Assembly: GCF_019880385.1 (NCBI RefSeq) | Contig: NZ_CP082273.1 | Location: 3,410,001 to 3,474,000 of the forward strand | Reading direction: 5' to 3' | Origin: Nocardioides coralli | GTDB lineage: Bacteria > Actinomycetota > Actinomycetes > Propionibacteriales > Nocardioidaceae | DNA: 64,000 bases | Part shown: piece by piece, positions 13,929-20,260 of the stretch | Layout: every line of letters starts with the position of its first letter | How positions within the stretch are numbered: the stretch's first letter is position 1 | Position numbers and translations under genes: made by a program | Notes under the pieces: model-generated | What the model saw: only the letters and a program-made list of their open reading frames with translations | Told to the model about the DNA's origin: nothing | Databases searched by the model: none

Positions 13929-14759
13929 TCAGTCGTCGCCGGTGACCCGCAGGCTCGTCGACCCCGGACCGAACCAGAGCGTCCGTTGCGGGAAGGGGAT
14001 CGTGATCTCGGCGTCGTCGAGCTTGCGCTTGACGGCCAGCGCGACCGCGTTGCGGACCCGCCACCGGGTGGCCATGTCCGAGGCGTGCCAGTAGCGCACC
14101 GCCACGTTGATCGAGGAGTCGCCGAACTCCTCCACCCAGGCCTCGGGCGGAGGGTCGGACTCGACGCCGTCGGCCTCCGCGCAGGCGGACAGGAGAAGGG
14201 AGCGCGCCTGCTCGAGGTCGGTGTCGTAGGCGACGCCGACCGTCAGCGAGGTCCGGTTGAGCGGCGTCTTGGTGAAGTTGACGATCGGGGACTGCAGCAC
14301 CTCGGCGTTCGGCAGGTAGACGGTGACCCCGTCGTAGGTCCTGATCCTGACCGTCCGGAGGTTGACGTCCTCGACGCGCCCCTCGTGGTCACCGCTGCCG
14401 ATCTCGTCGCCGATGCGGAAGGGCCGGCGCGCCTGCAGCAGGATCCCCGCCACAAAGTTCGACAGCACGTCCTGCGCTGCGAAGGCGAGCGCGATGCCGC
14501 CGATCCCCAGGGCGCCGAGCATCGGACCGACGCTCACCCCGGCGAGCTCCAGCGCGTAGACGGAGCCCGCCACCACGATGACGACTGCCGCGAGCCGGCC
14601 CAGCAGCCGCCCGGTGTGCCGGTCGGAGTCGCCGCGGTCGAGCACACGGATCGTCACGCGACGTACGACGACGGCGAGCATCAGGGTCGCGAGGAAGACG
14701 GCGACACCCGTCAGCACCGCGTCGTCGATCAGGGCGTCCATCCACCCATGGTGCCGCAC
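13929..14759 (-). CDS. MscS family mechanosensitive ion channel
   Basis: A 276-residue channel protein. Three hydrophobic segments occupy about residues 12-32, 50-72 and 78-100. The pore-lining helix and beta domain read GALGIGGIALAFAAQDVLSN then FVAGILLQARRPFRIGD, followed by the cytoplasmic beta and alpha/beta vestibule to about residue 265. It should release osmolytes under hypo-osmotic stress. The start is either GTG 14759 or ATG 14741; neither has an obvious ribosome-binding site, and the homologous region begins after both. Confidence 0.88.
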   Translation of the reverse strand: MRHHGWMDALIDDAVLTGVAVFLATLMLAVVVRRVTIRVLDRGDSDRHTGRLLGRLAAVVIVVAGSVYALELAGVSVGPMLGALGIGGIALAFAAQDVLSNFVAGILLQARRPFRIGDEIGSGDHEGRVEDVNLRTVRIRTYDGVTVYLPNAEVLQSPIVNFTKTPLNRTSLTVGVAYDTDLEQARSLLLSACAEADGVESDPPPEAWVEEFGDSSINVAVRYWHASDMATRWRVRNAVALAVKRKLDDAEITIPFPQRTLWFGPGSTSLRVTGDD

Positions 14760-16460: not shown

Positions 16461-16489
16461 GCGACCGGGTGGGAGCCGCACCGGCGTCC

Positions 16490-16495
16490 GATACT
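16490..16495 (+). promoter_or_regulatory. Leaderless promoter -10 box
   Basis: GATACT ends six bases before the GTG at 16502. Together with the minus-strand box at 16455-16460, it makes a 53-base divergent promoter region. Confidence 0.5.
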
Positions 16496-16501
16496 GGGGG
16501 C

Positions 16502-16963
16502 GTGAACCCCACCTACGTCGCCGTGGTCGGCCCCAGCGGCGACCCCGAGTCGCCTGTGGCACAGGCCGCCGAGGAGGTCGGCCGGCTGCTCGCGGAGGCC
16601 GGGTGCGTCGTCGTCACCGGCGGCGGCACCGGCGTCATGGCCGCTGCGTCCCGGGGCGCGGCCGGAGCCGGGGGTACGACGCTCGGGATCCTGCCCGGCA
16701 ACGACCGCGCCGAGGGCAATCCCCACCTGACCCTGGCGATCCCCACCGGCCTCGGCGAGGTGCGAAACGCGCTCGTGGTCCGGGCGGCCGACGCCGTGGT
16801 GGCTGTCGGCGGCAGCTGGGGCACGCTCAGCGAGATCGCCCTGGCCTGCCGCACCGGCGTCCGCTGCGTCTCCCTGCTCGGCTGGGACCTGCCGGAGACC
16901 GGCGGCCCGGTGGTGGCGGACTCACCCGCGGCCGCGGTGAGAGCTGCCCTGTCGTCCGGGTAA
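16502..16963 (+). CDS. LOG-like Rossmann protein (TIGR00725 type)
   Basis: A 153-residue SLOG/LOG-superfamily protein. It has the nucleotide-binding YVAVVGPSGD at the N-terminus, GCVVVTGGGTGVM, and the Gly-rich GGSWGTLSEIALA in place of the PGGxGTxxE of active cytokinin-type phosphoribohydrolases. TIGR00725 members are often annotated as possible lysine decarboxylase-like, but that activity is not established. The start is GTG 16502. The stop TAA is embedded in a long inverted repeat. Confidence 0.75.
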   Translation: MNPTYVAVVGPSGDPESPVAQAAEEVGRLLAEAGCVVVTGGGTGVMAAASRGAAGAGGTTLGILPGNDRAEGNPHLTLAIPTGLGEVRNALVVRAADAVVAVGGSWGTLSEIALACRTGVRCVSLLGWDLPETGGPVVADSPAAAVRAALSSG

Positions 16964-17044: not shown

Positions 17045-18235
17045 TCAGTCCTCGTGGATCGGCTGCCGGGGCAGCCGCTTGACCTTGCCGGCCCGCTTGC
17101 GGCGTGCCGGGATCATCGACCGCATCTCCTCGAGCATGCCGAAGCACAGCAGCCGGTCCTCGGGCTGCAGCACGTGGCTCGCCCGCGGGTTGGGGATCAC
17201 CTGGGTGCCGCGGTGGAGGGTCAGCACGGTGATGTCGCGCTCCCGCAGCCCGGAGTCGCCGATCGTCTTGCCCACGACGCTGGCGTCCTGGTGGACCGCG
17301 AGCTCGGCCACGCCGTAGCCGGTCGAGACGGTCAGCCGCTGCCGCACGTCGATGGTCGGGAACGCGACCTGGTTGTCGATGTGGTCGATGATCGCGCCCG
17401 CGATGTCGAGCTTGGTGGCCTTCTCGATGCCCTCGAGGCCGGGCGAGGAGTTGACCTCCATCACCAGGGGGCCGTCGTTGCCCTCCAGCATGTCGACGCC
17501 GGCCACCCGCAGGCCCATGATCTGCGCCGCTCGTACGGCGGTCTCCTGGAAGGCCTCGTCGAGCTCGACGGCCTCGACCGACCCGCCGCGGTGCACGTTG
17601 GACCGGAACTCGTCGCCCTGCGCCACCCGTCGCATCGCCGCGACCACCCGGTCGCCGACGACGAGGGCGCGGATGTCACGACCCTTGCTCTCCTTGACGA
17701 AGCGCTGGATCAGCACGTTCTGCTTGGTGCTCTGCAGCGTCTCGATGATCGCCTCGGCGACCTTGCGGTCGGGGGCGAGGATGACGCCGATGCCCTGGGT
17801 GCCCTCGAGGAGCTTGATGACCACGGGTGCGCCGCCGACGCGCTGGATCGCGGGGATGACGTCGGCCCGGTCCCGCACGAAGGTGGTGGCCGGCATGCCG
17901 ATGTTGTGGCGGGAGAGGATCTGCGTCGCCCGGAGCTTGTCGCGGCTGTTGGTGATACCGGCGGCGGTGTTGGGGGTGTAGACGTCCATCTGCTCGAACT
18001 GCCGCACCACCGCGGTCCCGAAGTAGGTGATGGAGTTGCCGATGCGCGGCAGGATCGCGTCGTAGTCGGAGAGCTGCTTGCCGCGGAACTGGAGGTCGGG
18101 CTCGTCCCCACTCAGGTCGATGCCGAAGCGCAGCGTGTTGAGGACCTTCACCTCGTGGCCGCGATCGGCGGCCGCAGTCCGGAGCCGTTGCGTGCTGTAG
18201 GCGCGCGGTGCGCAGGAGAGGATCGCGAGTTTCAT
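17045..18235 (-). CDS. RimK-type alpha-L-glutamate ligase with C-terminal RCK_C-like domain
   Basis: A 396-residue ATP-grasp amidoligase. The RimK N-terminal domain (about 1-95) contains LPRIGNS. The ATP-grasp domain (about 97-285) contains VVIKLLEGTQGIGV, the Mg2+/ATP loop EVNSSPGLEGIE and RAAQIMGLRVAGVD. RimK enzymes add glutamate residues to a protein C-terminus (ribosomal S6) or to cofactors such as F420. Unusually, residues about 305-380 form a TrkA-C/RCK_C-like module (VGKTIGDSGLRERDITVLTL, then LQPEDRLLCFGM), a fold that binds small ligands in K+ channels. ATG 18235 begins the conserved MKLAILS. It is divergent, with a 25-base gap, from a protease and carboxypeptidase gene pair. Confidence 0.9.
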   Translation of the reverse strand: MKLAILSCAPRAYSTQRLRTAAADRGHEVKVLNTLRFGIDLSGDEPDLQFRGKQLSDYDAILPRIGNSITYFGTAVVRQFEQMDVYTPNTAAGITNSRDKLRATQILSRHNIGMPATTFVRDRADVIPAIQRVGGAPVVIKLLEGTQGIGVILAPDRKVAEAIIETLQSTKQNVLIQRFVKESKGRDIRALVVGDRVVAAMRRVAQGDEFRSNVHRGGSVEAVELDEAFQETAVRAAQIMGLRVAGVDMLEGNDGPLVMEVNSSPGLEGIEKATKLDIAGAIIDHIDNQVAFPTIDVRQRLTVSTGYGVAELAVHQDASVVGKTIGDSGLRERDITVLTLHRGTQVIPNPRASHVLQPEDRLLCFGMLEEMRSMIPARRKRAGKVKRLPRQPIHED

Positions 18236-18260
18236 GTCCCTGACCTGAAAGGATGGGCGG

Positions 18261-18746
18261 GTGGCTGTCTCCGATGCTGCCCCCCCATCCAACACCATCG
18301 CAGGTTGGCGGGAATGGGTGAGCCTCCCCGGTCTCGGGGTCCCCTGGGTCAAGGCGAAGCTCGACACCGGCGCGCGCTCCTCGGCCATCCACGCCTTCGA
18401 CATCCACGAGTTCGACCGCGACGGCGAGGCCTGGGTCCGCTACTCGATCCACCCGTGGCAGCGCTCCGGCGTGGACGCCGTCGACTGCGAGAGCCGCGTG
18501 GTCGCGCAGCGGCACGTGCGCAGCTCGTCCGGCCACACCCAGGAGCGCTACGTGGTGAACCTAGACGTCTCACTCGTCGGCCGGGTGGTCTCGGCCGAGG
18601 TGACGTTGAGCCGTCGCGACGAGATGGGGTTCCGGATGCTCGTCGGCCGGGAGGCGCTGCGCGGCTCCTTCCTCGTCGACTCGGGTCGCTCCTACCTCGG
18701 CGGACGACCCGAGCGCGCCGTACGCCGTCAGAACCGGGGCCGTTGA
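18261..18746 (+). CDS. Retropepsin-like protease, RimK-associated (COG4067 type)
   Basis: A 161-residue protein of the family annotated as ATP-dependent zinc protease, which has the fold and active site of retroviral aspartic proteases. The catalytic-type motif KLDTGARSSA places Asp35 and is followed by a second half with RMLVGREALRGSFLVD. Members are recurrently encoded beside RimK-like ligases and AspA/AstE enzymes. The start is GTG 18261 with AAAGGA seven bases upstream. Its TGA overlaps the next ATG by one base (18744-18748), so it is coupled to the carboxypeptidase gene. A role in trimming RimK-added residues is inference from context. Confidence 0.85.
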   Translation: MAVSDAAPPSNTIAGWREWVSLPGLGVPWVKAKLDTGARSSAIHAFDIHEFDRDGEAWVRYSIHPWQRSGVDAVDCESRVVAQRHVRSSSGHTQERYVVNLDVSLVGRVVSAEVTLSRRDEMGFRMLVGREALRGSFLVDSGRSYLGGRPERAVRRQNRGR

Positions 18747-19693
18747 TGCCGCGCGAGTCCTTCGGGATCGGCAACGTCCGGGTCCGGTCCGGCAGCTCCC
18801 GCGCCCTCGAGATCCCCATCACCCGGCTGGTGACCGGGGCCGACGTGAGCCTCCCGGTGCGGGTGGTGCACGGACGCGATGACGGGCCGACGGTCTGGGT
18901 CTCCGCTGCCATCCACGGCGACGAGGTGGTCGGCGTCGAGGTGATCCGGCAGGTTCTCGCCGCCCTCGATCCCAAGACCTTCCGCGGCACGCTGATCGCG
19001 GTGCCCATCGTCAACGTGCTGGGGTTCATGAACGGCGACCGCTACCTCCCGGACCGGCGCGACCTCAACCGGTCCTTCCCGGGCTCGGCGCGCGGCTCGC
19101 TCGCGAGCCGGATCGCCCACCTGTTCATGGAGGAGGTCGTCGCCCACTCCGAGGTCGGGATCGACCTCCACACCGGGTCGGACCGTCGCTCGAACCTGCC
19201 GCAGGTCCGGGCCGACCTCGACGACCCCCGCACCCACCAGCTCGCCGAGGCCTTCGCGGCGCCGGTGATGCTGCACGCGCGCGTGCGTGACGGGTCGCTG
19301 CGCTGGGCGGCCCGCGAGCGGGGCGCGACCGTGCTGCTCTACGAGGGCGGGGAGAACCTGCGCCTCGACGAGTACGCGATCGAGCCCGCCGTCGCCGGCG
19401 TCCGCCGGGTGCTCGCGGCGCTCGACATGATCGACCCGGTCGCCCCGGCCGACCACGAGCCGTCCATCGAGTGCCGCAGCAGCGGCTGGGTCCGCGCCCG
19501 GCGTACCGGCATCCTCACCCTCGACGCCCATCTGGGCCAGCAGGTCACCGAGGGGGACCGGCTGGGCGCGCTGGTCGACTCGTTCGGCCGCACGCTGCGC
19601 CTGGTGCGCGCCAACCGCACCGGCATCGTCATCGGCCGCACCGAGGCGCCGCTGGTCAACTCCGGCGACGCGCTGGTCCACATCGGCAGCTGA
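18746..19693 (+). CDS. AspA/AstE-type zinc carboxypeptidase (succinylglutamate desuccinylase/aspartoacylase family)
   Basis: A 315-residue M14-like zinc hydrolase. The metal ligands are His57 and Glu60 in AIHGDEVVG and His142 in DLHTGS; the catalytic Glu is likely in LLYEGGEN. A C-terminal beta-rich domain (about 235-315) ends with a biotinyl/hammerhead-like stretch. The family hydrolyses N-acyl amino acids or short acidic amide bonds. Its coupling to the protease gene and the divergent RimK ligase suggests that it removes glutamyl or related residues added by the ligase. It is not part of a full arginine succinyltransferase pathway: no other ast genes are present. Confidence 0.88.
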   Translation: MPRESFGIGNVRVRSGSSRALEIPITRLVTGADVSLPVRVVHGRDDGPTVWVSAAIHGDEVVGVEVIRQVLAALDPKTFRGTLIAVPIVNVLGFMNGDRYLPDRRDLNRSFPGSARGSLASRIAHLFMEEVVAHSEVGIDLHTGSDRRSNLPQVRADLDDPRTHQLAEAFAAPVMLHARVRDGSLRWAARERGATVLLYEGGENLRLDEYAIEPAVAGVRRVLAALDMIDPVAPADHEPSIECRSSGWVRARRTGILTLDAHLGQQVTEGDRLGALVDSFGRTLRLVRANRTGIVIGRTEAPLVNSGDALVHIGS

Positions 19694-19746: not shown

Positions 19747-19795
19747 CGAGGTGGAGGCTCGGGAGTGCTCTCGGCTGGGGACGAGGGAGGACCCC

Positions 19796-20260
19796 TTGCG
19801 TCATGCAGTGCTCGTGCACGCCGGCTCGGTCGCGAGGGCTGCCTTCGAGCGCCTCGCCGAGCACCTCGGCGAGGAGGAGCCCCCGGCCCTGGTCCGGGCC
19901 CTGGCCGACTGGACCCGTCCCGAGGTCGAGGGCTGGCTGCCGCTGCTGCGCCGCCGCGGGATCGCCATGCGCCACCACTTCCGCACCCGGGAGAGCCACG
20001 ACCCGCTGCTCGCAGCACTGGCCGTCGAGACGTTGACGCTTGCGTCCGACGCCGACCTCGAGCACGTCTACCTGGTCGGCGACGTCGGCGGTGCGACACC
20101 CCTGGTCGACCGTCTCCGCGAGCTCGGCGTCCGCGTCACTGCCGTCGGGCCGGCACGCACCCCCCACGACTTCCGGTCCGCGTGCGACGACTTCTGGGAC
20201 CTCGCCGAGTTCGAGACCGACGGCGGTCACCGTGACGTCGGGCGCCACCGCGCCCAGTGA
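19796..20260 (+). CDS. NYN/LabA-like domain protein, degenerate
   Basis: A 154-residue protein whose order of elements resembles NYN (PIN-like) ribonuclease domains. It starts with a strand ending VLVHAG, has a central helical region with GWLPLLRRRGIAMRHHF, then LEHVYLVGDVGGATPLVDRL, LGVRVTAVGP and a final SACDDFWDLAEF. In active NYN proteins the central motif is S/G-D-S/G-D-F-x-P-L; here it reads VGDVGGATPL, with acidic positions lost, so nuclease activity is doubtful. TTG 19796 is preferred to GTG 19751 because a strong GAGGGAGG lies five bases upstream of it. Family assignment is tentative. Confidence 0.55.
   Translation: MRHAVLVHAGSVARAAFERLAEHLGEEEPPALVRALADWTRPEVEGWLPLLRRRGIAMRHHFRTRESHDPLLAALAVETLTLASDADLEHVYLVGDVGGATPLVDRLRELGVRVTAVGPARTPHDFRSACDDFWDLAEFETDGGHRDVGRHRAQ

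Follow-up and report, generated by a model that had tools for sequence, protein, structure and literature searches.

A stretch of 64,000 nucleotides from Nocardioides coralli (contig NZ_CP082273.1, positions 3,410,001 to 3,474,000; hereafter called the window and numbered from its first letter) carries three genes that appear to form one module. These are rimK, encoding a RimK-family alpha-L-glutamate ligase with a C-terminal RCK_C/TrkA_C domain (17045..18235, minus strand, 396 amino acids (aa)), a rimB-like gene, encoding a retropepsin-like aspartic endopeptidase (PF05618; 18261..18746, plus strand, 161 aa), and an aspA/astE-like gene for a zinc hydrolase that is predicted to trim glutamate at chain ends (18746..19693, plus strand). 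With somewhat better than even confidence, we propose that the three proteins run a ligand-gated polyglutamate cycle, either on an acceptor or on free chains. Judged by its family and by its mostly conserved glutamate-binding residues, RimK would add alpha-linked glutamates, at the expense of adenosine triphosphate (ATP), to the acceptor or to free glutamate chains. The RimB-like protein, given its conserved catalytic and polyglutamate-binding residues, would dimerise and cut chains from about five glutamates upwards, and the AspA-like enzyme may trim short stubs and oligomers beyond the reach of RimB, returning glutamate. The fold of the RCK_C domain suggests that it may bind a small regulatory ligand, with a nucleotide such as cyclic di-adenosine monophosphate (c-di-AMP) as the likeliest candidate, and so set ligase activity, and the divergent junction, conserved among relatives, would let both arms of the cycle be controlled together.

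The features listed in a preliminary description of this locus, namely a RimK ligase, a divergence of 25 base pairs (bp), a one-base overlap, Asp35 within DTGA, and His57, Glu60 and His142, are all confirmed in the sequence. The divergent start codons of rimK and the rimB-like gene enclose a junction of 25 bp (18236..18260), and the rimB-like and aspA-like genes share a single base (TGATG). The ATG of rimK at 18235 is backed by two Pseudomonas RimK structures, with which the protein aligns without gaps from residue 1 on; the GTG start of the rimB-like gene is a prediction, and alternative starts are possible. RimK is matched by Pfam Rimk_N (116.5 bits, over the cut-off), by the RimK ATP-grasp model (202.5, cut-off 21) and by TIGR00768 (254, cut-off 143.4), the RimB-like protein by Pfam Zn_protease (PF05618; 125.1, cut-off 27), and the AspA-like protein by Pfam AstE_AspA_cat (PF24827; 137.9, cut-off 25). 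Inspection by eye of the 161-aa RimB-like sequence revealed no signal peptide or hydrophobic leader, and models of RloA scored 63.6–80.6 on it, below their cut-offs of 210–280. The narrower equivalog models speak against our assignments, in that all three were missed: S6--L-glutamate ligase by RimK (NF007764; 326.7 vs 331), RimB by the RimB-like protein (NF052261; 125.6 vs 200, yet the top score among four retropepsin models), and DoeB by the AspA-like protein (TIGR02994; 95.9 vs 402.7). A structure model of whole-length RimK reached a mean predicted local distance difference test (pLDDT) score of 78.2, with values below 50 in the linker and the tail.

Two sets of genomes were surveyed for the trio: 145 genomes searched as relatives (own genome included), 88 of which belong to the same genus, and 396 genomes sampled evenly across the phylum (own genome included), for which the thresholds (RimK E<1e-80, AspA E<1e-70) were chosen after the gap in the match lists had been seen. 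RimB was found in 49 of the 145 genomes, every one from the genus, and full-length RimK (E<1e-200) in the same 49; one further genome (G031) adds a RimK cut by a contig end. RimK is divergently adjacent to RimB in 49/49, with a gap between matched stretches of 25–169 bp (median 71; matches starting after residue 1 inflate these figures), and the 25 bp of the window is the smallest value among the 49, the others being inflated by partial matches. AspA is present in 45 of the 49, and elsewhere in this set only as distant matches in five genomes of the order. It lies downstream on the strand of RimB in 45/45, at no more than 80 bp in 30 and at 0.3–6.8 kilobases (kb) in 15. The phylum sample displays the same association: RimB occurs in 35 of 396 genomes, close RimK in 36 (the 35 RimB genomes plus G479, which is 88% complete), and close AspA in 27, all among the 35, while none of the 361 genomes without RimB has a close AspA (best match shown, 1.9e-37). 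The preliminary description had stated that the three families recur together and had named a co-occurrence survey across actinobacteria as a check; the genus and phylum surveys bear this out and reveal conserved linkage.

Some of these counts weigh on the other side. Six genomes of the phylum sample hold more distant RimK-family matches (E 3e-42 to 7e-58) and no RimB, and at the thresholds used 8 of the 35 RimB genomes in the phylum sample and 4 of the 49 in the genus lack AspA; hence, AspA is not obligatory to the module. Its absence from 8 of the 35 phylum genomes, and its greater distance in 15 of 45 genus genomes, may also suggest that the AspA-like gene is a passenger, i.e. a DoeB-like N-acyl amino acid deacylase that is merely co-transcribed, and the best named relatives of the protein are indeed DoeB. 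We consider this unlikely, given the contrast of 27/35 against 0/361 and a set of six invariant arginines (see below) that have no counterpart in the DoeB chain compared and would suit a polyanionic substrate.

Gene order differs by lineage among the phylum loci. RimK and RimB are divergent in L113–L119, with AspA beside RimB in 2 of these 7; the order is RimB-AspA-RimK in L120–L123, RimB-RimK-AspA in L124, L125, L127, L129, L139 and L143, and RimB-RimK without AspA in L130–L132. RimB-AspA with RimK elsewhere is found in L133–L138, L140–L142 and L144–L146, and all three genes are separate in L126 and L128. We further compared 20 genus loci and 80 named-genome loci (100 loci, five genomes being present in both sets), in which RimK recurs 100 times, RimB 99 times and AspA 58 times; the eight window genes that flank the module recur in 0/20 genus loci and in at most 1/80 named-genome loci. 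Since gene orders vary, presence is patchy and the flanking genes are not common to the loci, the trio stays together through rearrangement and patchy presence. Co-occurrence in genus and phylum and the comparison of flanking genes led us to reject a chance neighbourhood. A query with the RCK_C region against genome contigs gave at least 570 confirmed relatives, the best 80 of which were used. All titles among these 80 are actinobacterial (Nocardioides, Agromyces, Agrococcus, Microbacterium, Terrabacter, Knoellia, Janibacter, Phycicoccus and others). Of the 80 loci, 78 have RimK and RimB in divergent orientation, one has them co-directional with AspA and one is cut; AspA lies inside the fetched flank in 42. 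Among the matches listed by a search for RimK homologues, which scored at most 8000 candidates and is silent on the distribution outside this group, at least 120 are close relatives (86–91% identical).

In Pseudomonas aeruginosa RimK, glutamate is contacted by S7, R8, S14, R64, S68, R189 and N262 (PMC10092738). The RimK of the window keeps six of the seven, and among 142 distinct RimK cores (176 RimK copies in the fetched loci) no contact is kept in fewer than 133. The remaining position counts against our proposal: residue 8 is a cysteine in the window (codon 18212–18214, minus strand), a position at which the glutamate-contacting arginine is found in 139 of 142 distinct relatives. The exceptions elsewhere are cysteine in L224 and L257 and valine in L034. 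Residues K33, D35-T-G, R96 and R119 of the RimB-like protein are invariant in 34/34 aligned sequences. RloA coordinates polyglutamate by one lysine and two arginines that are reported as conserved in RimB (PMC12239564), and in our own matching the basic residues of the RimB-like protein would correspond to these ligands.

The zinc-ligand residues of the AspA-like protein (H57, E60, H142), as well as N108, R109 and E200, are invariant in 25/25 aligned sequences, and all are common to the DoeB chain 6twl. Arginines 105, 148, 155, 181, 186 and 206 are likewise invariant in 25/25 and without counterpart in the DoeB chain compared, Arg 206 falling where the comparison is approximate; overall, the similarity to DoeB is distant (84 bits over 283 residues). 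Known members of the AspA/AstE family hydrolyse amides of acidic amino acids that bear a free alpha-carboxylate. As a separate observation, the AspA proteins of L133–L146 (14/14) end in tails rich in Glu and Asp, which that of the window does not.

In Pseudomonas, RimK writes and RimB erases alpha-glutamate chains; RimB is a retropepsin that is active as a dimer, removes glutamates from ribosomal protein S6, requires about 5–6 or more contiguous glutamates, and stimulates the synthesis of free poly-alpha-glutamate by RimK (PMC11957791). As RimB needs about 5–6 glutamates, shorter chains leave work for an exo-enzyme, a part that the AspA-like protein may play. The preliminary description had read the locus as a system in which the ligase adds glutamyl residues to a target and the two hydrolases remove or trim them, with S6 among the targets considered. 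The write/erase part of that reading is upheld by the linkage, by the catalytic residues, which are conserved except for the change of R8 to C8 in RimK, and by the Pseudomonas precedent; S6 as target is not.

The S6 of the window genome ends in ...KVLRPVH. S6 was located in 34 of the 35 module genomes of the phylum sample, 30 S6 loci were fetched, and an acidic tail was found in 0 of the 30 frames (one cut by a contig end), the last residue being a single Glu in two and Asp in one. Elsewhere, S6 ends in DNADE (Pseudomonas) or GDSEE (E. coli), and RimK is noted as possibly having other functions where S6 has no terminal Glu (PMC11957791). Because its own S6 ends in ...KVLRPVH and the 30 frames display no acidic tail, the acceptor of the module is, as far as these sequences tell, probably not S6. 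A plain Pseudomonas-like RimK-RimB system acting on S6 is thus a very unlikely explanation. The score of RimK just below the S6-ligase cut-off (326.7 vs 331) would fit such a system, as would the S6 gene of two genomes from a single family (G189, C6, and G475, C1), which lies some 12.5 kb away from rimB, perhaps by chance; the missing tail disagrees with it, as does the fact that the partners of RimK and RimB are more numerous here than in Pseudomonas.

A small cofactor (F420- or folate-like) that is glutamylated by RimK and whose glutamate tail is trimmed by the hydrolases has equally little probability in our estimate. The NCBIfam models MptN and CofF, which describe RimK relatives that glutamylate cofactors, match RimK, but far under their cut-offs (177.4 vs 350 and 99.9 vs 300, respectively). 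Most cofactor glutamate tails are shorter than about five residues. An exception is methylofuran, with up to 24 glutamates (PMC8141765), and a RimK relative of M. jannaschii is mentioned as an example in the literature (PMC11957791); on the other hand, the RimB-type endopeptidase needs about five or more alpha-linked glutamates (PMC11957791).

The missing S6 tail also bears on the possibility that no protein is tagged and that the module instead builds up and degrades free poly-alpha-glutamate, which would serve osmotic balance as a store of glutamate or charge, the RCK_C domain tying in the state of potassium or c-di-AMP. We give this reading clearly less than even confidence. Pseudomonas RimK makes the free polymer under stimulation by RimB (PMC11957791), the related secreted RloA proteases are needed in salt-free medium, and the authors of the RloA study consider that free polyglutamate may be a substrate (PMC12239564). 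In addition, neither crude gene calls over 21 regions nor a separate test of the window's own neighbours revealed a fourth gene conserved next to the trio; however, an acceptor protein could be encoded anywhere in the genome. The cycle that we propose covers acceptor-bound and free chains alike.

A feature absent from the preliminary description is the C-terminal part of RimK (residues 289–396; 17048..17371, minus strand), which consists of the RCK_C domain (Pfam TrkA_C, residues 309–364; 39.3 bits, cut-off 27) and a basic tail. TrkA_C is present in 17 of 25 aligned RimKs. The RCK_C part was structure-modelled alone, and the fold matches of this model are KhtT, KtrC, MthK, KtrA with c-di-AMP, and BusR. 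RCK_C is the fold through which KtrA, KtrC, KhtT, CpaA and BusR bind c-di-AMP (PMC8517857, PMC5508000). In our own mapping of positions onto the KtrA/KtrC contacts, position 331 is Arg in 13/17, and Leu or Ile at 325, V337, L338 and P350 are kept in 17/17; a diadenylate cyclase domain is encoded in the window's genome. Several points argue against a c-di-AMP sensor at the heart of the module. Two polar c-di-AMP contacts of KtrA are lost (Asp-167 aligns with G329 and Asn-175 with T336), the RCK_C of MthK matches as well as the c-di-AMP binders do, and RimKs about 50% identical in other lineages have the same partners and no RCK_C. Because these latter RimKs keep their partners without it, the RCK_C domain is an addition and not the core of the module.

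Nevertheless, its presence suggests control at the enzyme level too. One may speculate, tentatively and at rather low probability, that RimK-RCK is a receptor enzyme whose glutamate-chain synthesis is directly switched by c-di-AMP, or by some other nucleotide that RCK_C reads; once the signal falls, RimB and AspA would return glutamate. If true, a second messenger that governs potassium would also govern the polymerisation of glutamate, the main counter-ion of potassium. In many Actinomycetota, potassium/osmotic signalling would then be connected to polyglutamate metabolism or protein glutamylation in a way not described before. Two genomes (G338 and G470) have an RCK_C-bearing RimK plus a short form of RimK, and the RimK-RCK gene of G470 (L164) contains an in-frame stop, which may reflect decay of the copy or a fault in the assembly.

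The junction between rimK and the rimB-like gene holds an inverted repeat in relatives, with one arm facing each gene and the half-site consensus CCCATyCAAnCAGg. In the window, the RimK-side half-site CGCCCATCCTTTCAGGTCAGG is conserved (18239..18259, minus strand; matrix score 15.9), and a possible, degenerate RimB-side half-site CCCCCCCATCCAACACC (18280..18296, plus strand) was read by eye below matrix detection, so that the RimK-side arm alone scores and there is no scoring arm pair at the window junction. Of 79 regions, 65 have scores above 10 for both arms, against a mean of 0.0 in mono-nucleotide shuffles; the matrix was trained on the same regions that it scored, and the loci are related, a kinship that shuffles do not correct. 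Arm pairs at a spacing of 28–35 bp occur at the junction in 57 of 80 loci, mostly with spacings of 30, 31 and 33, and none was found away from the junction in 642 kb of the same loci. A matrix built from Nocardioidaceae arms and applied at a lower threshold matches 18 of 48 other loci and 0 shuffles, which is not a fully independent test, as these arms had been selected with the full matrix. The pattern TTGRATGN{16,21}CATYCAA was found in 12 of 145 genomes; its 10 matches in the genus all lie at rimK-rimB, and the two other matches are in other genera without RimB. The backwards control pattern was found in 4/145 genomes and in none of the genus. The exact pattern is absent from the window's genome and from 39 of 49 module genomes.

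In 65 of 68 judgeable loci the RimB-side arm shares the reading frame of rimB, and for this reason coding constraint may explain part of its conservation; the RimK-side arm is non-coding. A reading of the repeat as a sigma-70 promoter found TAnnnT only four times in 74 upstream regions, and a riboswitch search gave no Rfam match in the window between 12000 and 24000. The inverted repeat may be an operator or a promoter element. The preliminary description had further suggested that writing and erasing are balanced at transcription. A divergent junction with a conserved inverted repeat in relatives agrees with shared control; the balance itself is unproven, the window copy scoring on one arm only.

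Compared with established systems, the locus is closest in outline to several glutamate ligase and retropepsin pairs. Pseudomonas RimABK likewise combines a RimK ligase and a RimB retropepsin, writer and eraser, in one locus, with the DTG and the polyglutamate-binding residues kept. It differs in that its genes form a single operon, where they are divergent here, in that the RCK_C domain on RimK and the AspA-like hydrolase are added here, and in that the S6 acceptor tail is missing here; no EAL-domain RimA was found among the seven flanking genes scanned in the window. Pseudomonas RloABC also pairs a retropepsin with an ATP-grasp protein, and RloA cuts polyglutamate, but this protease is a secreted protein and its partner RloB a transglutaminase-like membrane protein (PMC12239564); a RloB-like membrane gene is not among the same seven flanking genes. 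In Desulfotalea RimBK, retropepsin and RimK act as one unit, and the domains are fused, whereas they are separate here and RimK carries another extra domain (PMC11957791). DoeB (6twl, 6twm), the nearest solved AspA/AstE protein, shares the zinc ligands, the N-R pair and the catalytic Glu; the AspA-like protein is only distantly similar to it, has extra invariant arginines and is tied to RimK and RimB. The RCK_C sensors KtrA, KtrC, CpaA, KhtT and BusR share the fold, with hydrophobic residues at 325, 337 and 338 and P350 kept here. Their RCK_C sits on a channel subunit or a DNA-binding domain, here on a glutamate ligase in which two polar contacts are changed and binding is a prediction from the fold.

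The core idea of RimK writing and RimB erasing alpha-polyglutamate is not new, having been published for Pseudomonas. Iyer et al. reportedly predicted ligase-peptidase neighbourhoods as peptide-tag systems in 2009, and the trio may have been foreseen there. The RimK-RCK_C fusion, the near-exclusive association of an AspA subfamily with RimB and RimK, and the inverted repeat were not found in the literature searched, which covered few subscription papers. The argument on S6 extends a remark already made for RimK (PMC11957791). In another context, a mutation in RimK is reported for a caesium-resistant E. coli (PMC10831881). Where S6 lacks an acceptor tail, RimK systems are without an established substrate, and this locus offers a compact, widely conserved and testable case, equipped with its own sensor domain and with two matched hydrolases. 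The former makes the control of actinobacterial polyglutamylation approachable by one binding assay, and the latter make products trappable in mutants. Proof of a gating role of RCK_C in the ligase would make the locus far more interesting.

Among the neighbouring genes of the window, a gene for an MscS-type mechanosensitive channel (13929–14759, minus strand) is separated from the end of rimK by about 2.3 kb; it was rejected as a part of the module, being beside it in 0/20 genus and 1/80 other loci. A SLOG cluster 4 family gene (16469–16963, plus strand) and an NYN-domain gene (19751–20260, plus strand) flank the module, and neither is beside it in the 100 loci compared. In the 15 genus genomes with a wider RimB-AspA interval, the interval holds other genes, with AspA still on the same strand (L062–L071, L073–L081). 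A crude gene caller, applied to 20 chosen loci and the window, returned clusters 3, 4 and 7 of open reading frames in 10, 9 and 7 regions, respectively, which by eye resemble a desulfurase-like protein, a repeat-rich secreted protein and a small membrane-anchored protein. They were not counted as parts of the module, since the window and many loci lack them. Within one clade, clusters 4 and 7 recur between RimB and AspA, and such clusters may have a clade-specific role.

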